Source: Kineosporia babensis
GTDB lineage: Bacteria; Actinomycetota; Actinomycetes; Actinomycetales; Kineosporiaceae
Direction of reading: 5' to 3'
Assembly (NCBI RefSeq): GCF_021129305.1
Contig: NZ_JAJOMB010000017.1
Location: 124,001 to 188,000, forward strand
Length of the DNA: 64,000 bases
Part shown: positions 7,685 to 63,804 of the stretch, piece by piece
Layout of the letters: each line of letters opens with the position of its first letter
Position numbering within the stretch: the first letter of the stretch is position 1
The notes under the pieces: model-generated
The model's database searches: none
Seen by the model: only the letters and a program-made list of their open reading frames with translations
Told to the model about the DNA's origin: nothing
Translations under genes and position numbers: made by a program

Positions 7685-7866
7685 AAGGCCCGGAGGTTAC
7701 GGTCCGGGGTCGATTGATGACGTACGAAGCCAAGCCGGGGTGGACGATTCGGTTCTGCTTGAAACTTCGCAGGCCGTAGCCCCCGTCCGGCTGAAACCGG
7801 CGAAGGCCTGGCGAACAGCGGGTTGCATCACCTCGCGTCTGGGCGGGCCGGGACCCGATCCCCGGC

Positions 7867-7872
7867 TAACGT
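7867..7872 (+). promoter_or_regulatory. Leaderless -10 box (TAACGT) for the lipid kinase gene
   Basis: TAACGT is followed by 7 nt and ATG 7880. This fixes the start of the lipid kinase downstream of the longest open frame. Confidence 0.5.
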
Positions 7873-7879
7873 GCACGTC

Positions 7880-8932
7880 ATGTCGATCGGTAGCGATGTC
7901 ATCAGGGACGTCGTGCTGGTTGTGGTGCTCGTGCTGGCCGTCGCGCTGCTGATCGCCCTGGTGGTGACCCGGCGCCGGTTGCTGTTCGCCCGGCGGCGGG
8001 AGGAGTCGGCCGACGAGTCGGCGGCGCCGCAGGCGGCCGTGGTGGTGCACAGCAAGAAGGTGGACGACCACGACGCCCGGCGCCGGCAGATCGAGGTGCT
8101 CTCGGGGCGTCTGGGCTGGCGGGCCCCGGTCTGGCTGGAGACCACGGCCGAGGATCCGGGCCGGGGGCAGACCAGGAAAGCGGTGGAGGACGGCGCTTCG
8201 GTGGTGGTCGCCTTCGGAGGCGACGGAACTACCCGGGCGGTGGCCGAGTCGCTGGCCCAGACGGGTGTTCCGATGGGGCTGCTGCCGGCCGGGACGGGCA
8301 ACCTGCTGGCCCGCAATCTGGGGGTGCCACCCAACCGGCTGGAGTCGTCCCTGCACATCGCCCTGACCGGGCGGAACCGGACGATCGACATCGGGCACGT
8401 GGAACTGGCCGACACCCTGGACAGCCCACCCCGCAAAGAGACCTTCCTGGTGATGTCCGGCCTGGGCTTCGACGCCGAGGTGATGGCCACCACCGCGCCG
8501 GAGCTGAAGAAGAAGATCGGCTGGGTGGCCTACGTGGTCGCCGGGATGAGCCGGCTGCGGGGGCGTCGCACCCCGGTGACGCTGCGGGTGGACGACGGCC
8601 CGGCGGTGCAGCGCCGGATCCGCGCGGTGCTGGTCGGGAACGTGGGGATGCTGCAGGGCGGCATTCAGCTGATGCCGGCCGCCCTGCCCGACGACGGCTG
8701 GCTGGACGTGGTGGTGGTCTCCCCGCGGGGTGTGACCGGCTGGGTGCCGGTAGTGGGGGCGGTGCTGACCCGCCGCAACCACGCCACGGTCGAGCACTTC
8801 CGCTGCAAGACGGTGGAGATCCAGGCCGACCGCCCGATGTTCGCCCAGCTGGACGGGGATCCGGCGGGTAAGGCTCAGTCGCTGAGGGCCCGGGTGGACC
8901 CGCTGGCCCTGGTCGTGCGGGTGCCTGGTTAA
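7880..8932 (+). CDS. Diacylglycerol/sphingosine kinase-like lipid kinase, membrane-anchored
   Basis: 350-aa protein with one N-terminal transmembrane helix (residues ~10-30, VVLVVVLVLAVALLIALVV) and a DAGK catalytic domain: the ATP-binding FGGDGT motif at residues 112-117 and the LPAGTGNLLARNLG loop at about 131-145. The C-terminal beta domain carries QGGIQLMPAALPDDGWLDV, typical of YegS/DgkB/BmrU enzymes. Likely phosphorylates diacylglycerol or a related lipid at the inner face of the membrane. Family members are usually soluble or peripheral, so the N-terminal anchor is a variation. It converges on the 2H phosphoesterase gene with overlapping stops. Confidence 0.85.
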   Translation: MSIGSDVIRDVVLVVVLVLAVALLIALVVTRRRLLFARRREESADESAAPQAAVVVHSKKVDDHDARRRQIEVLSGRLGWRAPVWLETTAEDPGRGQTRKAVEDGASVVVAFGGDGTTRAVAESLAQTGVPMGLLPAGTGNLLARNLGVPPNRLESSLHIALTGRNRTIDIGHVELADTLDSPPRKETFLVMSGLGFDAEVMATTAPELKKKIGWVAYVVAGMSRLRGRRTPVTLRVDDGPAVQRRIRAVLVGNVGMLQGGIQLMPAALPDDGWLDVVVVSPRGVTGWVPVVGAVLTRRNHATVEHFRCKTVEIQADRPMFAQLDGDPAGKAQSLRARVDPLALVVRVPG

Positions 8933-54842: not shown

Positions 54843-54880
54843 TGTCTCGGGGTTTTGCCACAATCCACAGCACAGGCCGG

Positions 54881-54886
54881 TAGGGC
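54881..54886 (+). promoter_or_regulatory. Probable -10 box (TAGGGC) for the helicase-nuclease gene
   Basis: TAGGGC is followed by 7 nt and ATG 54894; the last base deviates from TANNNT, so confidence is lower. Confidence 0.35.
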
Positions 54887-54893
54887 ACAACTC

Positions 54894-57800
54894 ATGGGAG
54901 TCACGGTGGGCGAGCGGAGCGAGGTGGTCCTCGACCGCACGCGTCGCCTGCTCACCTTCCTGGCCGCCGCCGCCCGGGAGCTGACCGTCCGCCCGGTGCG
55001 CGACGTCCTCAAGCACGAAAGCTCAGGTGGGCCGGGCGCCCTGCTGCCCACCGACGTCCCCCGGCACCCGAAGGTCCGGTTCCGGGGCGCCGAGGCCGAG
55101 GACCGGGACGACTGGCTCGAGGTGCGTAAGGTCCCGCTGCCCGGCGAGCCGCCCGAAGTCCCCGCTGACCTGGCCGGATACGTCTCCACCGATGTCCGTC
55201 CGCCGATCCTGACCGCAGACGCAGGCCCAGCGCCCGAGGTGCAGCAGGCCTTCCAAGAGTGGCTGGAGCACACCTGGCAGCCCTGGGCGGAGTCGGCCGG
55301 CGCCGGTCATCGGGCTCGTCAGCTCTACGAACGGCTGTTCGCCCTGCAACTGGAGGCCGAGCGTCAGCAGAGCACGCACGAGCTGGTCTGGGGGCACAGC
55401 GTGCTCTCCTGGGACGTGGCGCTGGAGCAGATCCGCCACCCACTGCTGATCACCGGCGCGCGGATCGAGCTGGACGCGGCCACCGGGGCCCTGCGCGTGC
55501 TGCCGGACGGCCCGCCCGAACTGGAGCTGGCCGCGCTGGAGGGCCTTGACCTGCCGGTGCTGGCCGAGCTGAACCGGCTCACCGAGCTCGGCGATTTCGA
55601 CGTCTGGGATCAGGAAGCCCGAAAGGCCCTGCACGACAAGCTGCTTGCGCCGCTGCATCTGGACGCGACGGTGCTCGAGGGGCCGAACATCCCTGCGCCC
55701 GGCCCGGTTCCGGTGATCAGCGACACGTGGGTGCTGTTCCTGCGGCGTCGCCCTACCCGGCACGAGCGCTTCTACCTGCAACTGGCCGAGCGGCTGCGTG
55801 AGGACTCGGTGCTGCCCCAGGGCCTGGCCTCGGTGGTGGCCGACGAGGACGAGCTGCAGGTGGCGCAGGCCGAGCTGGAGCAACTGCCCGACGGAGCCGC
55901 GTGGCAGCCGATCGGCGAGCGCCTGCTGATGCCGCTGCCGGCCAATGCCGAGCAGGAGCGGATCGCCCGGCAGCTGGCCCGCGAGCGCGGGGTCACCGTG
56001 CAGGGCCCGCCCGGCACCGGCAAGAGCCACACGATCGCGAACCTGGTCAGTCATCTGCTCGCGCACGGCAAGCGGGTGCTGGTCACCGCGCAGAACGAGC
56101 AGGCGCTGACCGTGCTGCGCGAGAAGATCCCTGAGGAGCTGCGGGACCTGTCGATCGCGGTGCTGGGTTCCTCGAGCGAGTCGATGGAGCAGCTGCGCGG
56201 ATCGGCGCACGCGGTGCAGGACATTGCCGCGCAGATCGATGTCGAGACCGAGACCAAGGCGATCGGGCAGCTGGAAGCCGAGCTCGACCGGGTCCGGGGC
56301 AACCTGCACGGCGTTGAGCAGGCCGTTCTGGAGGCGCTGCGCACCGAGGACGCGGAGTGGGAGCTGCCGGCCGGGCCACAGAAGGCGCCCCAGGTCGCGC
56401 AGTGGCTCACCGAGAACGAGGCCACGCTCGGCCTGATCCCGGACGAGCTGGCCCTGGATGCCGTGCTGCCGTTGTCCGAGGTGGAGCTGGCGCGGCTGTT
56501 CGAGCTGAGCGAGCGGATCACCCCGGCCGATGCCCAGGCCCTGGGCGTCCGGCGCCCGCGCACCGATCTGCCCACGCCGGCCCAGCTGGTCGCGCAGACC
56601 GGCAAGCTGGACGAGTTGCGGCAGGACGTGGCCGATCTGGAGCAGTCCGGGGTGGCCCTGCCGGCACTGGACCAGCTCGGGCCGCAGGAGCTGGCCGACC
56701 TCAGGGCAGCGGTGCACGAGGCGGCGATCCATCTGGCCGGGCTGGAGGCGCCCTGGCTGCTCAAGATCCGTTCCGACATCAGGGGTTCGCAGGCCTCCGC
56801 CCGGTCGTGGACGGTGCAGGCGGAGCAACTCAGCACGAGCACCACCCGGGCTGCCGAGTTGCAGGCCAGGCTCTTCGGGCACGAGGTTCAGCTGCCACCG
56901 GGCGATCCGCATCAGCAGCGTCAGGTCCTGACCGACCTGGGGCAGAGATTCGCTGCGGGTAAAGGGCTTCCGCGATTCGGCGGCGGCGATCTTAAGCAGT
57001 TGCAGGCCCAGGCGCTGATCGACGGCCGGGCGCTGCGCACGGCCGAAGACACCGAACTGGCGCTGACCTGGCTGAACCTCAACGAGGCGCGCTCGGCCGC
57101 GCAGCGGATGCTGGCCCAGTTGCCACTGCTGGAGCCCCTCGAAGAGACCGCCGACTTCGTGCACCGGGCCACGATGCTCACCGAGCAGCTCGATCTGGCC
57201 CTGACCTGGGAGTCCCAGGAGCTGCCGGCCCTGCTGAACCGCACGCGTCCGCTGGTACCGCACCTGGGGCCCGACCTGACCGCCGCCGACCTGCAGGTTC
57301 TGGGCCGGCTGCTGGCCGCCACCGGCGCCCGGCAGGAAGAACGCAAGGTCACCGCTGAGCTCAAGGCCCTGTCCGACGAACTGCGCGAGGGCCCGGACGA
57401 GCCGCTGGGGAATGCCCTGCGCACCGCCCTCGAGCACCGCGACTGGGCCGCCTGGGGTGTCACCCTCGACGAGATCGGGAGACTGGCCGGGCTGGAACCG
57501 GTCGCCGCCGAGCAGCACGAACTGACCGATCGGCTGGCCGCCGTGGCCCCGGGCTGGGCCGCCGCGATCGTGTCCACCAGCGCTGATCCGGAACTGGCGG
57601 GCACCGCCGCCCGGGCGCCGCAGATCTGGCACTGGCGGATCACCGCGACCTGGCTGGACGAGCTGCTGCGGGCCGGTGACCTGGCTCATCTGCAGGCTCA
57701 GGTGATCACCCTGCAGCAGCAGGAACAGGCTCTGGTGCTGCAACGGGCCCGGCGCGGGGCCGCGCTGGGGCTGAAGCACAACCTGCGGGAGAAGAACCGG

Positions 57801-59294
57801 CGGGCGCTGGCCTCCTGGCTGCGGGCGCTGGGCAAACGCGGCAAGGGCACGGGCAAGTACGCCCCGCACTGGGAGAGCGAGGCCCGGCGGTTCATGCCCA
57901 GCGCGATGGGCGCGGTGCCGGTCTGGATCATGCCCGTGCACCGGGTGATCGAGAACTTCGACCCGCTGGTCACCGAGCCGTTCGACGTGGTGATCGTGGA
58001 CGAGTCCAGCCAGTGCGACCTGCTCTCGGTCGGGGTGCTGGCGCTGGGCGCGAAGGCGGTCGTGGTCGGGGACGACCAGCAGACCAGCCCGGCCGCGGTC
58101 GGGGTGAACATCGAGCGGATCATCCAGCTGCAGAACTCGCACCTGAGCGGGGTCGAGGCCAAGAGCCTGCTCACCGTGGACCAGAGCCTCTACGCGCTGG
58201 CCGAGCTGATCTTCCCGAGCACGATCCTGCTGCGCGAGCACTTCCGCTGCGTGCCCGAGATCATCGAGTTCTCCAACCGCTACTACGACGGCGACATCCT
58301 GCCGTTGCGCGAGCCGGTAGTGGCCGGCATCGGCGCCCCGCTGCGGCTGATCCGGGTGGAGGACGGCGCCACCAGCGGCACCACCGACAAGGTCAACCGG
58401 GCCGAGGCCCAGGCCCTGGTCGAGCAGGTCCTGGCCTGCCATCGGGACCGGGCCTACGCCGGAATGACGTTCGGCGTGGTCACCCTGCAGGGCTCGGCCC
58501 AGGGCCCGCTGATCGAGAACCTGCTGCGAGAGCGGCTCGGGCCCGAGGCTTTTGCCGAGCGTCGGCTGAGAGTGGGCAATCCACCGGCCTTCCAGGGCGA
58601 CGAGCGCAACGTGGTCTTCGTCAGCGTGGTGGCGGCCGACGCCACCTGGGCCGCCACCAAGAACGCGGACAAGCAGCGGATCAACGTGGCCGCCTCGCGG
58701 GCGCAGGATCAGCTGTGGGTGTTCCACACGGTCGAGCCCGGCCGGCTGCACAAGGACGATCAGCGCCGGGCCCTGCTGGAGTACCTGCGCGACGCCGCCC
58801 TGAAGCCGCCGACCAGCGAGGACCAGGAAGAACGCTGCGAGTCGGAGTTCGAGCTGGCGCTGCTGCGGGAACTGCGACGGGCCGGGTACGAGGTGCAGGT
58901 GCAGCACCAGGTCGGCCGTTACCGGATCGACCTGGTGGTGGTCGGGCAGTCGGCCCGACTGGCGATCGAGTGCGACGGCGATCGTTACTCCGGCGCGGAG
59001 CACTGGGAGGACGGCATCCGGCGCCAGCGCCAGCTGGAACGGCTGGGCTGGACCTTCTGGCGGATCCGGGCCTCGGAGTTCTACCGGGAGCGGGCCGAGA
59101 CGGTGGGCACGTTGTTCGAGCGGCTCGAGAAACACGGGGTGCTGCCCAAGCCAATGTGGGACGTTGTGCGCACCGCGGTCCCGGCAGCTGCGGTTACGCC
59201 GTTGGTCGAGGAATCGTTGGTCGCCGAGGTCTCCCTCGAAGAGTCAGTGGTCGAGCTACCCGAGGACGAGGACCCCGCCGACGTGCTGTTTTAG
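54894..59294 (+). CDS. SF1 (UPF1/DNA2-like) helicase with C-terminal VSR/MTES_1575-type nuclease
   Basis: 1466-aa protein. Walker A is QGPPGTGKSHTIANL (about 369-383), followed by LVTAQNEQALTVL (motif Ia). A long helical insertion spans ~430-1000. Motif II is VVIVDESSQCDLL (about 1030) with DDQQTSPAAVG (motif III), and QGDERNVVFVSV and RINVAASRAQDQLWV (motifs V-VI) follow. The last ~110 residues have the PD-(D/E)xK core of VSR-like endonucleases (YRIDLVVV, then IECDGDRY with E-x-D and QRQLERLGWTFWRIRASEFY). Such helicase-nuclease single proteins are frequent in phage-defence islands. No methylase or partner is adjacent, so defence is an inference. Converges on ligD-pol with overlapping stops. 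Confidence 0.85.
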   Translation: MGVTVGERSEVVLDRTRRLLTFLAAAARELTVRPVRDVLKHESSGGPGALLPTDVPRHPKVRFRGAEAEDRDDWLEVRKVPLPGEPPEVPADLAGYVSTDVRPPILTADAGPAPEVQQAFQEWLEHTWQPWAESAGAGHRARQLYERLFALQLEAERQQSTHELVWGHSVLSWDVALEQIRHPLLITGARIELDAATGALRVLPDGPPELELAALEGLDLPVLAELNRLTELGDFDVWDQEARKALHDKLLAPLHLDATVLEGPNIPAPGPVPVISDTWVLFLRRRPTRHERFYLQLAERLREDSVLPQGLASVVADEDELQVAQAELEQLPDGAAWQPIGERLLMPLPANAEQERIARQLARERGVTVQGPPGTGKSHTIANLVSHLLAHGKRVLVTAQNEQALTVLREKIPEELRDLSIAVLGSSSESMEQLRGSAHAVQDIAAQIDVETETKAIGQLEAELDRVRGNLHGVEQAVLEALRTEDAEWELPAGPQKAPQVAQWLTENEATLGLIPDELALDAVLPLSEVELARLFELSERITPADAQALGVRRPRTDLPTPAQLVAQTGKLDELRQDVADLEQSGVALPALDQLGPQELADLRAAVHEAAIHLAGLEAPWLLKIRSDIRGSQASARSWTVQAEQLSTSTTRAAELQARLFGHEVQLPPGDPHQQRQVLTDLGQRFAAGKGLPRFGGGDLKQLQAQALIDGRALRTAEDTELALTWLNLNEARSAAQRMLAQLPLLEPLEETADFVHRATMLTEQLDLALTWESQELPALLNRTRPLVPHLGPDLTAADLQVLGRLLAATGARQEERKVTAELKALSDELREGPDEPLGNALRTALEHRDWAAWGVTLDEIGRLAGLEPVAAEQHELTDRLAAVAPGWAAAIVSTSADPELAGTAARAPQIWHWRITATWLDELLRAGDLAHLQAQVITLQQQEQALVLQRARRGAALGLKHNLREKNRRALASWLRALGKRGKGTGKYAPHWESEARRFMPSAMGAVPVWIMPVHRVIENFDPLVTEPFDVVIVDESSQCDLLSVGVLALGAKAVVVGDDQQTSPAAVGVNIERIIQLQNSHLSGVEAKSLLTVDQSLYALAELIFPSTILLREHFRCVPEIIEFSNRYYDGDILPLREPVVAGIGAPLRLIRVEDGATSGTTDKVNRAEAQALVEQVLACHRDRAYAGMTFGVVTLQGSAQGPLIENLLRERLGPEAFAERRLRVGNPPAFQGDERNVVFVSVVAADATWAATKNADKQRINVAASRAQDQLWVFHTVEPGRLHKDDQRRALLEYLRDAALKPPTSEDQEERCESEFELALLRELRRAGYEVQVQHQVGRYRIDLVVVGQSARLAIECDGDRYSGAEHWEDGIRRQRQLERLGWTFWRIRASEFYRERAETVGTLFERLEKHGVLPKPMWDVVRTAVPAAAVTPLVEESLVAEVSLEESVVELPEDEDPADVLF

Positions 59295-60535
59295 TTCTCC
59301 TGGTTCCAGGTCATCCCGGCCCAGGGGTTGTAGTCGGCCAGAAGTTCTTCCTGCGGCGGGCGTTCGGCCTCGGGAACGTGCTGCAGATTGATCCGGATCC
59401 GGTACCAGAGCGAACTACGTCCCCGCATGCCGTCGACCAGTACGTCCACCGGCTCCAGTTTCGCGGCGACATCTGGATATTTCGCCTTCCACACCTCGAG
59501 CCATTCCAGCGCCTCGGGTTTGGTCTTGGTCTTGGCGATCTCGATCAGCGGCATGGTCGACTGCCGGCGGCCCACCCCCTTCGGCGGCTTCTCGGCCGGA
59601 CCCAACTCCTTGGCCAGCGCCAGCAGCGCATCCAGCGTGCCCGGCTGCTCCCCGATGCCTTCCCACGGATCCCCCTGCTCGGTGTAACGCCTGGTCACCG
59701 TGGCCAGCGTGAGCTCTTCCATCCGGCAGTGGGCCACCTCGTCCCAGCGCAGTGGGGTCGAAACCCGAGCATCCGCAACCGCTCTGACCGACCAGGCCGA
59801 GGCGATCGTCCGGTCCTTGGCGTTCTGGTTGAAGTCCACGAAGACCTGCGAACCGCGCTCCTCCTTCCACCAGCGGGCGGTGGCCAGTTCCGGCACCCGG
59901 TTCTCCACCTCGCGGGCGACGGTCTCCGCGGCCAGCCGAAGATCCTTGTACGGACGCGTCGGGTCCACTCGCGCGTAGATGTGAAAGCCGCGTGATCCGG
60001 AGGTTTTCGGCCAGCCGACCAGCCCGTGCTCGGCCAGCACCTGCCGGGCCACGAACGCCACCTCAACTATCTGGGCCCACTCCACGCCGGGCATCGGGTC
60101 CAGGTCGATCCGCAGTTCGTCGGGCTTGTCGAGATCTTCGGCGAGCACCGGATGCGGGTTCAGGTCGATGCAGCCGAGGTTGACGATCCAGGCCAGACCG
60201 GCGGCGTCCCGAATCACCGCCTCCTCGGCCGAGCGGCCCGAGGCGTATTTCAGCTCGGCGACCTCTACGAACGAGGGACGATTGCTGGGCGCCCGCTTCT
60301 GGAAGAACGCTTCCTCGTCGATCCCTTTGACGAAGCGCTTGAGCACCATCGGCCGGCCGCTGACTCCACGCAGCGCACCTTCGGCCACCGCTAGGTAGTA
60401 CTGCACCAGATCGAGCTTGGTGACTCCGACCCCGCCGGCCGGATGCCCGGCCTCGGGAAAGACCATCTTGTCCGGATGCGTCACCGTGACCTCGTGCCCG
60501 GCGACCTCGAGAACCGTGCCCTGCGCCTTCGCCAT
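59291..60535 (-). CDS. Stand-alone LigD polymerase/primase-like protein
   Basis: 414-aa archaeo-eukaryotic-primase-family polymerase as in the PolDom of LigD: the HPDKMVFPEAG start, SFVEVAELKYASGRSAEEAV, the metal DxD in LRIDLDPMPG, KTSGSRGFHIYARVDP and FVDFNQNAKDRTIASAWSVR. In NHEJ this domain adds (ribo)nucleotides at broken ends; separate polymerase genes (PolD1/PolD2) exist in mycobacteria and Streptomyces. No ligase domain and no Ku gene are in the window. ATG 60535 has TAGCCT 6 nt upstream (leaderless). It is ~100 residues longer than a minimal PolDom, with a C-terminal extension rich in Glu/Pro/Trp. Confidence 0.88.
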   Translation of the reverse strand: MAKAQGTVLEVAGHEVTVTHPDKMVFPEAGHPAGGVGVTKLDLVQYYLAVAEGALRGVSGRPMVLKRFVKGIDEEAFFQKRAPSNRPSFVEVAELKYASGRSAEEAVIRDAAGLAWIVNLGCIDLNPHPVLAEDLDKPDELRIDLDPMPGVEWAQIVEVAFVARQVLAEHGLVGWPKTSGSRGFHIYARVDPTRPYKDLRLAAETVAREVENRVPELATARWWKEERGSQVFVDFNQNAKDRTIASAWSVRAVADARVSTPLRWDEVAHCRMEELTLATVTRRYTEQGDPWEGIGEQPGTLDALLALAKELGPAEKPPKGVGRRQSTMPLIEIAKTKTKPEALEWLEVWKAKYPDVAAKLEPVDVLVDGMRGRSSLWYRIRINLQHVPEAERPPQEELLADYNPWAGMTWNQEN

Positions 60536-60547: not shown

Positions 60548-60827
60548 AGCCGGGGTAGGAGAACCGGCAGGAGGAACGCGCGGGTTGGGGAGTCCGCCCA
60601 TGCCGAGATGGCGGAGGCAACGAGGTGCGCTTGGCCCACAGTTCCCACCATCACCCTCCGAGCGACTTCGATCACCATGAGCCATAACCCAAAGGCGCAC
60701 TTCCGCTATCTATGTGTTTATGCTGATCGCGTTACGGATTTACCGTACCTGAGCCGACTATTACCAAACAGAGCAGCTAAAGCAGGTTTCACTCCGGCGG
60801 CGGATGCATGCGGACGGCGAAAGCTCC
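60548..60827. other. ~280-bp gap, locally AT-rich
   Basis: No gene. Around 60680-60790 the GC content drops visibly compared with the flanks. A small palindrome TACGG-ATTTA-CCGTA (60733-60747) lies about 95 bp before the XRE gene and may be an operator or a remnant of foreign DNA. Confidence 0.45.
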
Positions 60828-60833
60828 TACCGT
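60828..60833 (+). promoter_or_regulatory. Leaderless -10 box (TACCGT) for the XRE gene
   Basis: TACCGT is followed by 6 nt and ATG 60840, supporting this start over an upstream in-frame ATG at 60804. Confidence 0.5.
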
Positions 60834-60839
60834 CCGGAC

Positions 60840-61094
60840 ATGCCCACTCTCCTGGATGTGCTGCCGCGCAACGTCGCGGCCGAGCGTGCCCGCCGCGGGT
60901 GGCTCCAGAAAGATCTTGCGAAAGAGCTTGGCTGGGGCGGAACCAAGGTGTCCGAACTGGAGACCGGGGCACGCCGGGTTCAGGTCGACGAACTCGGTCC
61001 GCTGTGCCGGGCTCTCGGTGTGCCGCTGTGGAAGCTGGCCGAGGGTACGGATGCCGAGGAACTCGAAGCCCTTGGCCTGACGCCCCCTCACTAA
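60840..61094 (+). CDS. Small XRE/Cro-type HTH regulator
   Basis: 84-aa protein consisting of a single HTH_3 domain: LPRNVAAERARRGWLQKDLA, then the recognition region ELGWGGTKVSELETGARRV and the closing helix LCRALGVPLWKLAEG. No effector or protease domain. It probably binds DNA as a dimer; the palindrome at 60733 is a candidate site. Its stop lies 4 bp from the convergent NAD-kinase-like gene. Small free-standing XRE proteins often control mobile or defence modules; whether this one belongs to the NADK-SPFH-NUDIX block is unknown. Confidence 0.8.
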   Translation: MPTLLDVLPRNVAAERARRGWLQKDLAKELGWGGTKVSELETGARRVQVDELGPLCRALGVPLWKLAEGTDAEELEALGLTPPH

Positions 61095-61098
61095 ACCC

Positions 61099-61962
61099 TC
61101 ACACCAGCGAAAGTCGCTGCGCCGCCACCCGCACGGTGACCTGCTGGCCCCAGCCGACCGTCAGCCGGTCAGCCTCCAGCCCGTCGCCGAACACCACCAG
61201 GTCTCCCTCGGCGACCAGCGGCAGTTCCTCGGAAGCGGCCAGCCGACCCTGGGTCTGGCTGGTTCCGGTGAACGGTGAGGGCCAGGCTTCGCGCACGAAC
61301 CAGGCCAGGCTCTCGTCCAGAGGGCCCGGCAACTCTGGAGCGTCGGTTCGTTCCCGGGCCAGCGAAGCGCACCAGCCGGTCGAACCGGTGCCGGTCCCGA
61401 CCAGGATCCCCGAGGAAGACTGCCGTTCTCCCCGGATCCGATAGCGGGCGGACTGGTGGCCCGCGTCGCCGATGTACAGCTCGTTGAGGGCCCGCAGCGT
61501 CTGGCCGTCGTCCAGCAAAGCCTCCACCATCGTCCTCTGCTCGAAGGCGCTGGACCCGATACCGGCCAGCAACCCACCCACAGCTGCGGCCGAATGCCGA
61601 ACCAGAACACCCGGATTCACCCCCGGCTCCGGATCAACGCCGAGCACCGGCTGCCCGTTCACATACTTGGCCACGTTCGCCACCAGACCGTCCTGACCGA
61701 CGGCAACCACAACGTCCTCTGGCTCGAACCGCAGCCGAGGCAGATCCGCCCGCTCCAGCGAAGCACGCCGCCAGCCACCCGGAATCCCGTTCTCCACCAG
61801 GCGTAATGCCTCGTGCAGGGCATCGTGCCGAGCCTGCACTGCACCCAGATCGCGGCCGCGCGAGCGCAGGAAGAACTCGGCCTGGCCCCGGGTGCTGTGC
61901 CGCTCCAGCAGCAGGTCCAGCTCGCTGCGGCGATGCACTAGAACCGCGCGGGGAGCAATCAT
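61099..61962 (-). CDS. NAD-kinase-like protein
   Basis: 287-aa protein with the ATP-NAD kinase fold. The GGDG motif appears as VGQDG (residues 88-92, second Gly replaced by Gln, catalytic Asp91 kept). GVDPEPGVNPGVL replaces the usual G-I-N-x-G-x-x-G-F-L. NELYIG (160-165) corresponds to the N-E/D substrate motif, and GILVGTGTGSTGW (185-197) to the S/T-P-T-G-S-T-A-Y phosphate loop. The N-terminal ~75 residues (LERHSTRGQAEFFLRSRGRD) differ from NadK. It may phosphorylate NAD or a related nucleotide, or only bind it. ATG overlaps the SPFH stop (ATGA), so the two are translationally coupled. Confidence 0.75.
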   Translation of the reverse strand: MIAPRAVLVHRRSELDLLLERHSTRGQAEFFLRSRGRDLGAVQARHDALHEALRLVENGIPGGWRRASLERADLPRLRFEPEDVVVAVGQDGLVANVAKYVNGQPVLGVDPEPGVNPGVLVRHSAAAVGGLLAGIGSSAFEQRTMVEALLDDGQTLRALNELYIGDAGHQSARYRIRGERQSSSGILVGTGTGSTGWCASLARERTDAPELPGPLDESLAWFVREAWPSPFTGTSQTQGRLAASEELPLVAEGDLVVFGDGLEADRLTVGWGQQVTVRVAAQRLSLV

Positions 61963-62951
61963 CGGGACAGGGCCGTCAGTGCGCTGGTGACCGCGTCCGG
62001 CGTGATGGTCAGGCTGCCGACCTGGGGCAGATTCTTGGCCGCCTCCCGAGCCGCCAGCGCCAGCAGCACGGCTTGGTCCATGTCGGCGTAGATCGCCATC
62101 CGCGCCGCCTCGGTCTCCGCGTCCGCCGCCCCGACCAGACGCGTGCTCTCCGCCCGGGCATCGGCCAGCAGCCGAGTTTGCTCCGCCTTCGCCTCGGTCT
62201 CGATCCGCCCCGCCGCGGCCGCCTCCGTCGCCCGACGCCGCTCATTCGCCCCGCGCCGGCTGACCAGCTGCTCTTCCCGCGCGGCGAGCTCGATCTGGGA
62301 CTGCAACTCGTTCTCGCTGATCGCCCGCTCCCGTTCCACCGCCAGCGCGCGACGTTCGTACGTAGCCTTGTCCGCCTCCTGCTGCACCTGCTCACGTGCG
62401 GGGGTCTGCAGCGCCCGCTCCACGTCGGCCTCTGGACGTAGAGCGATCACCCGTACGTCCACCACTTCAACGCCCGTAGCGCTCAGCCGCTCATCGCTGC
62501 TCAGTCCCGTGGCCATCCGCTCCCGCACTGCGGCCAGCCCGGCCGTAAGCGCCTGGTGCAACGTGAAACCGGTGAGCAGATCCAGCGCGTGCTGCTGAGC
62601 AGCCTCAGTGAGCATCTGGGCGATCTGTTCCAGGGGACGTCCGCGCCAGGTTCCCTTCTTAGGGTCCAGTCCGAAGTCCAGCCGGCGGGCGGCCAGGTCC
62701 GGGTCGGCCATCCGGTAGGCCACGGTGGCCTGCACGCTCACGTCCTGGAAGTCGGCGGTGCGGGCGTGGAACAGCAGGCCGAGCTCGCGGTCGTCGATCG
62801 GCACCTCGCTCAGCGCGGCGCTGAGCGGGCGGAACCAGAAGGCCTGGCCGGGGCCGGAGTGCACGGTCCGGCCCCGGCGCACGTGCACCAGGTGATCGGT
62901 GGTGGCGCTACGGACGTGCCAGACCAGGGGGTAACGACGAATCTCGGCCAT
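61959..62951 (-). CDS. SPFH/band 7 domain protein
   Basis: 330-aa SPFH (stomatin/prohibitin/flotillin/HflK) family protein without an obvious N-terminal membrane helix. Residues ~10-180 form the SPFH domain (GPGQAFWFRPLSAALSEVPI, DVSVQATVAYRMADPDLAA, ATGVEVVDVRVIALRPEADV). Residues ~180-280 form a long charged coiled coil rich in Arg, Glu and Ala (QEADKATYERRALAVERERA), and ~280-330 a more hydrophobic end. SPFH proteins assemble into rings at membranes and recruit partners. ATG 62951 follows AAGGGA by 6 nt. The operator at 62973 lies just upstream, and the NAD-kinase-like gene is coupled downstream. Confidence 0.8.
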   Translation of the reverse strand: MAEIRRYPLVWHVRSATTDHLVHVRRGRTVHSGPGQAFWFRPLSAALSEVPIDDRELGLLFHARTADFQDVSVQATVAYRMADPDLAARRLDFGLDPKKGTWRGRPLEQIAQMLTEAAQQHALDLLTGFTLHQALTAGLAAVRERMATGLSSDERLSATGVEVVDVRVIALRPEADVERALQTPAREQVQQEADKATYERRALAVERERAISENELQSQIELAAREEQLVSRRGANERRRATEAAAAGRIETEAKAEQTRLLADARAESTRLVGAADAETEAARMAIYADMDQAVLLALAAREAAKNLPQVGSLTITPDAVTSALTALSR

Positions 62952-62972
62952 GATCAATCCCTTCACCGTTTA

Positions 62973-62987
62973 TCGTCACTTTGACGA
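62973..62987. promoter_or_regulatory. NrtR-type operator copy 1 (TCGTCACTTTGACGA)
   Basis: Perfect inverted repeat TCGTCA-CTT-TGACGA preceded by TTA, 22-36 bp before the SPFH start. Same TCGTC-N5-GACGA pattern as the site at 63025. Confidence 0.65.
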
Positions 62988-63024
62988 GTTCTGGTGAGGG
63001 TGACGCTAGCCCGGAGCTTTGTTA

Positions 63025-63039
63025 TCGTCAACCGGACGA
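63025..63039. promoter_or_regulatory. NrtR-type operator copy 2 (TCGTCAACCGGACGA)
   Basis: Inverted repeat TCGTC-N5-GACGA, also preceded by TTA, 31-45 bp before the NUDIX regulator start. Two copies within one divergent promoter suggest joint control of the SPFH-NADK operon and the regulator gene. Confidence 0.65.
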
Positions 63040-63069
63040 AAGACCGTCACTCGAAAGGGACCCATCGCC

Positions 63070-63804
63070 GTGTCCGGCACCGAGACCTATGACCCGTCCA
63101 AATACCCGCCGATCGCGGTGACGGTGGACATCGTCCTGCTCACGATCATTCAGGACAGCCTGGCGGCGCTGCTGATCCGGCGGGGCGCGGAGCCGTTCAA
63201 GGACAGCTACGCCCTGCCCGGCGGCTTCGTGCAGCCCGACGAGACGCTGGCCGCAGCGGCCGCGCGCGAGCTGGAGGAAGAGACCGGCGCCCGGGGCATG
63301 CACCTGGAGCAGCTGGGCACCTACGGCGACCCGGGCCGCGACCCGCGGATGCGCGTGGTCAGCGTGGCCTACCTGGCGCTGATCCCGAACCCGCCCGAGG
63401 TGGTCGGCGGCAGCGACGCCACGTCGGCCGAATGGTCTCCGGTGGCCTCGTTCCTGGACAGCACCCTGCCCGAGACTCCCTCGCTGCTGGCCTTCGACCA
63501 CAGCCGGATCCTGCGCGACGGCGTGGACCGGGCCCGGGGCAAGCTGGAGTACACCGGCCTGGCCACGGCCTTCTGTCCGGACGAGTTCACCGTGGGCGAG
63601 CTGCGCCGGGTGTACGAGATCGTCTGGGGCGTGGACCTCGACGCCCGCAACTTCCACCGCAAGGTGACCGGCACGCTGGGTTTCCTGGAGCCGACCGGCG
63701 AGATGACCACCCGCGGCGGCGGCCGCCCGGCCCAGCTGTTCCGGCAGGGCCCCACCCAGAGCCTGAACCCGCCGATCCTGCGGCCCAGCCCCACGGTGAT
63801 CTGA
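63070..63804 (+). CDS. NrtR-type transcriptional regulator (NUDIX domain + winged helix)
   Basis: 244-aa protein: a NUDIX domain (about 15-145) with a complete Nudix box at residues 52-74 (G-x5-E-x7-R-E-L-x-E-E-x-G-A pattern), then a winged helix (about 155-230) with ILRDGVDRARGKLEYTGLA, FTVGELRRVYEIVWGVDLD and ARNFHRKVTGTLGFL. This combination is that of NrtR/ARaR regulators of NAD and sugar metabolism, which sense ADP-ribose or related effectors. In many NrtRs the Nudix box is degenerate; here it is intact, so hydrolase activity is possible. GTG 63070 after AAAGGGA. Predicted to bind the two TCGTC-N5-GACGA sites. Confidence 0.85.
   Translation: MSGTETYDPSKYPPIAVTVDIVLLTIIQDSLAALLIRRGAEPFKDSYALPGGFVQPDETLAAAAARELEEETGARGMHLEQLGTYGDPGRDPRMRVVSVAYLALIPNPPEVVGGSDATSAEWSPVASFLDSTLPETPSLLAFDHSRILRDGVDRARGKLEYTGLATAFCPDEFTVGELRRVYEIVWGVDLDARNFHRKVTGTLGFLEPTGEMTTRGGGRPAQLFRQGPTQSLNPPILRPSPTVI

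Follow-up and report, generated by a model that had tools for sequence, protein, structure and literature searches.

A three-gene locus was analyzed in a 64,000-nucleotide stretch of the Kineosporia babensis genome (assembly GCF_021129305.1, contig NZ_JAJOMB010000017.1, positions 124,001 to 188,000; the whole stretch is called the window). A gene for an SPFH protein and a gene for a nicotinamide adenine dinucleotide (NAD) kinase-like protein, denoted NADKL, are read leftward, and a gene for an NrtR-type regulator is read rightward from the shared promoter region. In this genus and in a second genus, denoted g57, the SPFH–NADKL pair probably belongs to an NAD-salvage regulon, because the operator at the shared promoter also precedes pncB. 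NrtR regulons of NAD metabolism are known; the one proposed here is distinguished by an unusual effector operon. Judged from sequence, the pair most likely acts on NAD itself or on NAD breakdown products. The divergent arrangement had been recognized in an earlier reading of the same DNA (the original prediction), as had the translational coupling of SPFH and NADKL, whose reading frames share four bases (ATGA) at 61959–61962; both observations were confirmed.

Linkage was examined in loci obtained from a scan of contigs from 84,980 species (the best 80 of 362 NADKL relatives), from relatives, from phylum genomes, and from nine plasmid records. In all 116 loci that include 900 bp or more of upstream sequence, the gene immediately before NADKL on the same strand encodes an SPFH homologue; this count takes truncated or broken SPFH genes as linked and leaves out the split duplicates L021 and L022. 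A divergent NrtR gene is present within 3.2 kb in 91 of the 111 loci with at least 1500 bp upstream, and a distant regulator can be missed in loci of about 3.9 kb. The loci are not independent: several represent one genome, or two almost identical genomes, sampled twice (the promoters of L007 and L024, of L009 and L076, and of L005 and L023, for example, are identical), and many loci are from Arthrobacter or Cellulomonas relatives. With an SPFH profile (E ≤ 1e-15), matches were obtained in 29 of 50 genomes, which are the same 29 that carry NADKL, and in none of the 21 genomes in which NADKL was not found. The co-occurrence proposed in the original prediction thus extends beyond close relatives to several phyla.

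The module is found in Actinomycetota, in metagenome-assembled genomes (MAGs) of Chloroflexota, in Proteobacteria, and in one spirochaete, and some copies are carried on plasmids. The best 80 of the 362 relatives include proteins from Kineosporia, Cellulomonas, Arthrobacter, Jiangella, Glycomyces, Klenkia, Nocardioides, Frankia, Mycobacterium attenuatum, and Acidimicrobiia and Chloroflexi MAGs. The distribution is patchy, with copies in 18 of 118 related genomes and 12 of 396 phylum genomes (E < 1e-100; the K. babensis genome is in both counts, and at most six candidates per genome were scored in the phylum search); one broken copy is present in addition (G370). Plasmid matches were obtained in 62 records, 42 of them from Rhizobium. 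In the plasmid loci of Rhizobium, Methylomonas, and Providencia, the annotated order is a NUDIX gene diverging from SPFH followed by NADKL. The NUDIX proteins of these loci have the NrtR winged helix, and their NADKL proteins are annotated as "sugar kinase" or "hypothetical protein". SPFH–NADKL is present and NrtR was not detected in the Treponema and Roseomonas loci, and no match was obtained in a DNA search of E. coli genomes. As a separate observation, NADKL adjoins tet(H) or tet(J) in Acinetobacter, in Proteus, and on an uncultured plasmid (L227, L230, L231), where its SPFH gene is intact, broken, or truncated; partial NADKL genes are also found in small plasmids of Pasteurella, Actinobacillus, and Psychrobacter.

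The probable operator is a 21-bp palindrome, TTATCGTCA-NNN-TGACGATAA, which is usually paired in the shared promoters. At least one site (12 or more of 18 positions) is present in 52 of 52 scored promoters and at least two in 37 of them; excluded from this set were 11 promoters of less than 60 bp, some of which had a misplaced start, and a single 824-bp promoter. The 52 promoters contain 92 sites, compared with a mean of 0.85 and a maximum of 4 after shuffling that preserved base composition only. Paired sites are mostly 33–34 or 44–45 bp apart. The promoter-like pattern TTGAC[AG]-N16-19-TANNNN appears in 48 of the 52 (shuffled mean 0.37, maximum 3), and the −35-like box falls within an operator site in 44. 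This overlap is not independent evidence, because the −35 box partly belongs to the operator consensus. Among the 109 loci that have an SPFH start preceded by 60 bp or more, a position weight matrix (PWM) detects a site in 100 and two sites in 98. The intergenic stretch 62960–63045, singled out in the original prediction as a place for the regulator to bind, does contain two candidate operators (Table 1).

Operator-like sequences of other kinds were also seen. By eye, GTGTC/GACAC(TAA) half-sites are repeated in the intergenic regions of L224, L226, and L227, with the same GTC-N5-GAC spacing as the actinobacterial operator and different outer bases. A different palindrome, TTATAGTC...GACTATAA, is present at G358:C26:11850 and G221:C16:42396. 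The G358 copy stands 75 bp ahead of a second NrtR paralogue, so NrtR paralogues may use shifted operators. A search of the K. babensis genome with the short core TCGTC-N5-GACGA gave 21 sites versus 12 for the control and led nowhere.

The operator was then located outside the module. With at most three mismatches, the palindrome matches three places in the 9.4-Mb K. babensis genome, two at the window and one at C3:253104; the reversed-pattern control gave zero matches. The site at C3:253104, which has a companion site 50 bp further along, precedes pncB (NAPRTase_N, E 2.5e-25), which is followed by a pncA-like gene (Isochorismatase, E 1.9e-23). A site scoring at least 10 precedes pncB in 12 of the 27 module-bearing genomes that have pncB, among them all five of this genus and all seven of g57. 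Among 28 module-free genomes, such a site was found in three, namely G001 and G284, which both keep a close NrtR, and G006, in which the core is different; the pncB-upstream score of module-free genome L199 is 9.9, just below 10. A score of at least 10 is reached by 3.5% of random 340-bp windows, true operator loci included. In other lineages the operator is confined to the shared promoter, or none was found.

Two further groups of genomes bear on this assignment. In the g57 genomes the regulator sits away from the pair, and two sites are present in 7 of 7 SPFH promoters (L108, L109, L111–L115). In at least five of the seven genomes (G139, G221, G274, G295, G358), the distant nrtR gene is likewise preceded by a site, at a distance of about 10 bp. 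The sister species G001 (L220) lacks SPFH–NADKL; it retains the NrtR gene, the helix-turn-helix (HTH) and LigD-pol genes, and an operator, with a further site 20 bp ahead of pnuC. According to the original prediction, the regulator controls the SPFH–NADKL pair instead of NAD biosynthesis genes. This has to be corrected, since the same operator precedes pncB here and in four other module-bearing genomes of the genus, and pnuC in the sister species.

Several other sites were considered as additional targets and set aside. The pnuC–nadR sites of G092 were only suggestive for a regulator of the type found in the window, with another NrtR paralogue about 2 kb away; the pnuC site of G001 is less ambiguous, as a single NrtR match at E ≤ 1e-30 was obtained in that genome. 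A site in G008 lies 285 bp before a nadR-like open reading frame and also 66 bp before a DUF3788 gene in the opposite direction, which leaves its target unsure. Sites 439069, 445508, and 8471267 of G139 were uninformative, and the reading frames at 445508 and 8471267 have no Pfam family.

The regulator was matched to the Pfam families NUDIX (E 2.4e-17) and NrtR_WHD (E 5.5e-17), in both cases above the Pfam cut-off, and to the NCBIfam NtrR model with 132.6 bits, under its cut-off of 400. It is the sole NrtR match at E ≤ 1e-30 in its own genome. Its Nudix box, GFVQPDETLAAAAARELEEETG, is intact, as stated in the original prediction, and the box is likewise intact in 63 of 65 full-length members of the regulator family, the exceptions being L048 and L060. 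According to PMC4666351, the Nudix box is impaired in NrtR regulators of NAD metabolism, and several of them are inactive. MsNrtR of M. smegmatis is reported to be released from DNA by ADP-ribose (PMC6800001), and NAD serves as a co-repressor in NdnR, another member of the family (PMC4666351, PMC6800001). By analogy with the NrtR family, it is plausible that the regulator senses NAD breakdown.

No Pfam family was matched by the NADKL protein of the window at E ≤ 0.1, and the best NCBIfam match has an E of 0.0056. Among 46 NADKL relatives, 17 match Pfam NAD_kinase weakly (best E 3e-4). When a 46-row family profile was used, the first match was human mitochondrial NADK2 (63.2 bits, E 1.8e-16), and the next sequence scored 37.2 bits. 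The AlphaFold model (mean predicted local distance difference test score, pLDDT, 93.7; predicted template modeling score, pTM, 0.88) was compared with solved structures using Foldseek. Human NADK2 (7r4l) was obtained first (E 1.5e-17, template modeling (TM) score 0.76, root-mean-square deviation 5.7), followed by an NAD kinase from Pseudomonas (E 3.2e-17, TM 0.59); the E-values are nearly equal, and the two matches are parted more by the TM-scores. All of the best 50 Foldseek matches listed are NAD kinases. The description "NAD-kinase-like" in the original prediction is therefore firm for the family profile and the predicted fold, and weak where single-protein searches are concerned.

The GGDG catalytic motif of NAD kinases is replaced by G[QPS]DGL in 96 of the 96 NADKL sequences counted; 18 SPFH and 3 NADKL sequences were left out of the motif counts. 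The variants are VGQDGLVAN (82), VGPDGLVAN (9), IGQDGL (3), VGSDGLVAN (1), and VGQDGL with a second GGPDGV stretch (1). The motif is followed by NE or ND in 79 of the 96, the search expression having failed in the other 17, and FVREAW is kept in all 96. GQDGLVAN is also kept in all eight plasmid NADKL proteins read. The motif aspartate, D91, is invariant in the 46-row alignment, and N160 and the GTGTG stretch are so in part. A phylogenetic tree places the family apart from the 13 canonical NAD kinases included, with a support of 100/100. These kinases were selected for the presence of GGDGT and TPTGS; the branches of two of them are long, and the composition of six rows is unusual. A canonical NAD kinase is encoded elsewhere in the host genome. 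From its predicted fold, NADKL is described as an NADK-fold protein of a separate deep family and is not classed as an NAD kinase. A second match to the NAD_kinase model in the same genome is an unrelated YegS-type lipid kinase at 7823–8932 on the plus strand (DAGK_cat, E 1.3e-18; YegS_C, E 7e-17).

The SPFH protein was matched to Pfam Band_7 (E 1.6e-14, 54.8 bits versus a cut-off of 23.6). Its model, which begins at the second residue (pLDDT 88.7, pTM 0.53), consists of an SPFH fold and a helix spanning residues 174–288. HflK/C, stomatin, erlin, and prohibitin were retrieved with this model using Foldseek, and major vault protein appeared lower down. No hydrophobic anchor (Kyte–Doolittle above 1.6 over 19 residues) was found in 80 of 81 family members. 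The sole exceedance is borderline, at 1.61, and the median is 1.25. Of the "ring-forming membrane scaffold" in the original prediction, the SPFH domain is thus upheld by profile and fold, and the membrane part was rejected because no hydrophobic anchor was seen. Oligomerization of the SPFH protein is inferred by analogy with its family.

The preferred interpretation, to which about even chances are given, is an NAD-responsive effector operon in which NrtR-repressed SPFH–NADKL is made together with the salvage enzymes and NADKL acts in a soluble SPFH oligomer. NrtR would bind the 21-bp palindromes over the SPFH–NADKL promoter and repress it, and in this species it would also control NAD salvage through pncB(-pncA). 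On a rise in NAD turnover, ADP-ribose or a related ligand would free NrtR, and the salvage enzymes and SPFH–NADKL would be made together. NADKL, as an NADK2-type protein, would most likely bind NAD and phosphorylate it or a closely related compound, perhaps using an unusual phosphate donor, within the soluble SPFH oligomer that holds it. With its intact Nudix box, NrtR may degrade the signal to which it responds, which would reset the system. The computed results cover the gene order and linkage, the fold, the conservation of motifs, and the operator with its trans sites; repression, the effector, contact between SPFH and NADKL, the oligomer, and catalysis are inferred. A more specific version appears possible but doubtful. 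It describes a new kind of machine for handling NAD(P), in which a soluble SPFH assembly would hold an enzyme of NADK2 type whose phosphate loop has been rebuilt (GQDGL), be switched on with salvage at NAD breakdown, and have spread between phyla on chromosomes and plasmids. If this were true, NAD(P) could be phosphorylated, stored, or shielded by the assembly, and the donor might be one other than ATP.

GGDGT shapes phosphate binding in NAD kinases, and changes in the GGDGT-like motif of phosphofructokinases switch the phosphate donor. With this phosphate-binding loop changed to G[QPS]DGL across the family, including the plasmid proteins, NADKL could instead be a pseudokinase, a sensor that binds NAD(H) or ADP-ribose and gates the SPFH assembly while phosphorylating nothing. 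This is considered rather unlikely; many pocket residues are strictly conserved (D91 and, in part, N160 and the GTGTG stretch), and such a pocket suits catalysis as well as binding. NADKL could also be a kinase of a substrate other than NAD (e.g., nicotinamide riboside, nicotinic acid mononucleotide, or ADP-ribose) that feeds or clears salvage intermediates, as may be suggested by the co-regulated pncB here and pnuC in G001, by the deep separation from the canonical NAD kinases, and by the canonical NAD kinase encoded elsewhere in the host. The solved relatives in the significant range of the profile are NAD kinases throughout, and this alternative is judged unlikely.

The original prediction also tied the locus to NAD-depleting phage or toxin attack. 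A defense module triggered in this way would be consistent with the patchy distribution and the plasmid copies. A gene for a RES-family NAD+ phosphorylase lies 2.6 kb downstream of the NUDIX/SPFH/NADKL set on a Rhizobium sp. Pop5 plasmid (L225, 8517–9074; one instance), and a helicase-nuclease distantly like Hhe and ProA is encoded 2.7 kb from the pair in the window. Against this, no PADLOC family was found for SPFH or NADKL (the Nudix domain gave one weak match, E 4.4e-6), no relatives were found in viral contigs and phage records, and no neighbor recurs beyond close relatives in 80 loci. The operator, moreover, ties the pair to salvage genes. The phage-defense module was rejected on the PADLOC, viral and phage, and neighbor searches, and defense is regarded as very unlikely. 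That an ordinary SPFH gene merely stands beside a decayed NAD-kinase gene would fit the almost empty single-protein family searches with NADKL. This is almost certainly wrong, as it is already contradicted by the linkage in all 116 loci, by motifs that are invariant over phyla, and by operators retained where the regulator sits elsewhere (g57).

Several results weigh against the effector-operon interpretation. Nine of the 109 SPFH promoters have no site, mostly at loci that also lack a nearby NrtR gene, and NrtR is not found nearby in 20 of 111 loci; the pair can therefore do without the NrtR regulator. The PWM was trained on promoters on which it is also counted; its training set contained neither the pncB sites nor the seven promoters of g57. 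The sites are candidate operators and do not prove binding. Although a pncB site is present in 12 of 27 module-bearing genomes overall, it is present in 0 of the 15 outside genera g1 and g57. Finally, the catalytic motif of NADKL is altered, and kinase activity is therefore unsure.

The locus resembles known NrtR NAD regulons, as described in PMC6800001 (MsNrtR) and PMC4666351, in having a Nudix domain with a winged helix, divergence from the target, palindromic sites, and NAD salvage among its probable targets. The operator differs from the mycobacterial one given there, GTTTTCGA-N7-TCGAAAAC (PMC6800001), the Nudix box is intact rather than impaired (PMC4666351), and the main linked target is SPFH–NADKL. 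NADKL has ALNEV..G and SSGL..TGTG..W stretches in common with human NADK2 (7r4l, 7n29) and differs from it by G[QPS]DGL in place of GGDGT, by an identity of 16–19% over the structural alignment, and by its partner SPFH gene. The fold and, in part, the NE-type and TG-rich motifs are shared with bacterial NAD kinase (NadK/PpnK), whose members score at most 37 bits against the NADKL profile and lie on the other side of the tree. In a published phylogeny (PMC6675116), eukaryotic NAD kinases have no consistent prokaryotic sister clade.

Like HflK/C, stomatin, prohibitin, erlin, and major vault protein, the SPFH protein has an SPFH fold followed by a long helix; unlike known SPFH proteins, it has no transmembrane or hydrophobic anchor seen here and adjoins NADKL in the loci examined. 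Functions are known for few bacterial SPFH proteins, and none tied to NAD was found in the literature searched. The literature search gave no description of SPFH with NrtR or of SPFH with an NAD kinase, with or without Nudix, an earlier mention in the 2008 NrtR-regulon paper remaining possible; the main text of a 2016 proteobacterial regulon paper (PMC5343134) mentions neither SPFH nor NAD kinase. Two papers that name NrtR together with NAD kinase are, judged by their titles, on different topics, and in one further paper, on ADP-ribose and NAD+, SPFH appears solely in a reference entry. The nearest solved relative of the G[QPS]DGL family is human mitochondrial NADK2. The SPFH protein of the locus has a fixed neighbor whose fold is known, a regulator that belongs to a known type, an operator that can be read, and genes that are probably co-regulated with it. 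Its role, and with it a part of NAD metabolism that has gone unstudied, can therefore be tested directly.

The features of the locus are collected in Table 1. The SPFH start was moved from GTG at 62966 to the ATG at 62951, which is conserved in the alignment. The regulator most likely starts at GTG 63070; this start is preferred because a start at TTG 63019 would place candidate operator 1 within the gene.

Table 1. Genes and candidate regulatory sites of the SPFH–NADKL locus (window coordinates)
Feature	Position	Strand or placement	Basis
SPFH (Band 7) protein, 330 aa	61959..62951	-	Pfam Band_7, model, Foldseek, conserved start
NADKL (NAD-kinase-like), 287 aa	61099..61962	-	NADK2 profile match, model, Foldseek, VGQDGLVAN for GGDGT
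NrtR-type regulator, 244 aa	63070..63804	+	Nudix domain, winged helix, intact Nudix box
Candidate operator 1	63022..63042	covers -35-like box of SPFH promoter	3 mismatches to 21-bp palindrome; PWM 24.1
Candidate operator 2	62970..62990	downstream of SPFH promoter	3 mismatches to 21-bp palindrome; PWM 28.7
Marginal third operator-like site	62989..63009	over -10-like box	PWM 11.5; 13/18 positions
Promoter-like pair for SPFH–NADKL	63003..63031	-	TTGACG (63031-63026), 17 bp, TAGCGT (63008-63003; 3/6 to TATAAT)

Two genes adjoin the trio, a small HTH gene at 60804–61094 (plus strand) and a LigD primase-polymerase gene at 59291–60535 (minus strand). The left edge of the locus in the original prediction, 60840, takes in the HTH gene, which is separate and convergent. 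In the relative loci compared, the HTH gene is confined to those of the same genus, and so is the LigD-pol gene apart from one 32% LigD match in Cellulomonas (L053); neither was retained as part of the module. The gene at 54855–59294 (plus strand) encodes a 1479-residue helicase with a C-terminal MTES_1575 nuclease domain. This protein scores far under the cut-off of NCBIfam ProA and is distantly like candidate anti-phage proteins, with PADLOC matches to PDC-S37 (E 1.3e-55) and Hhe (E 5e-32).

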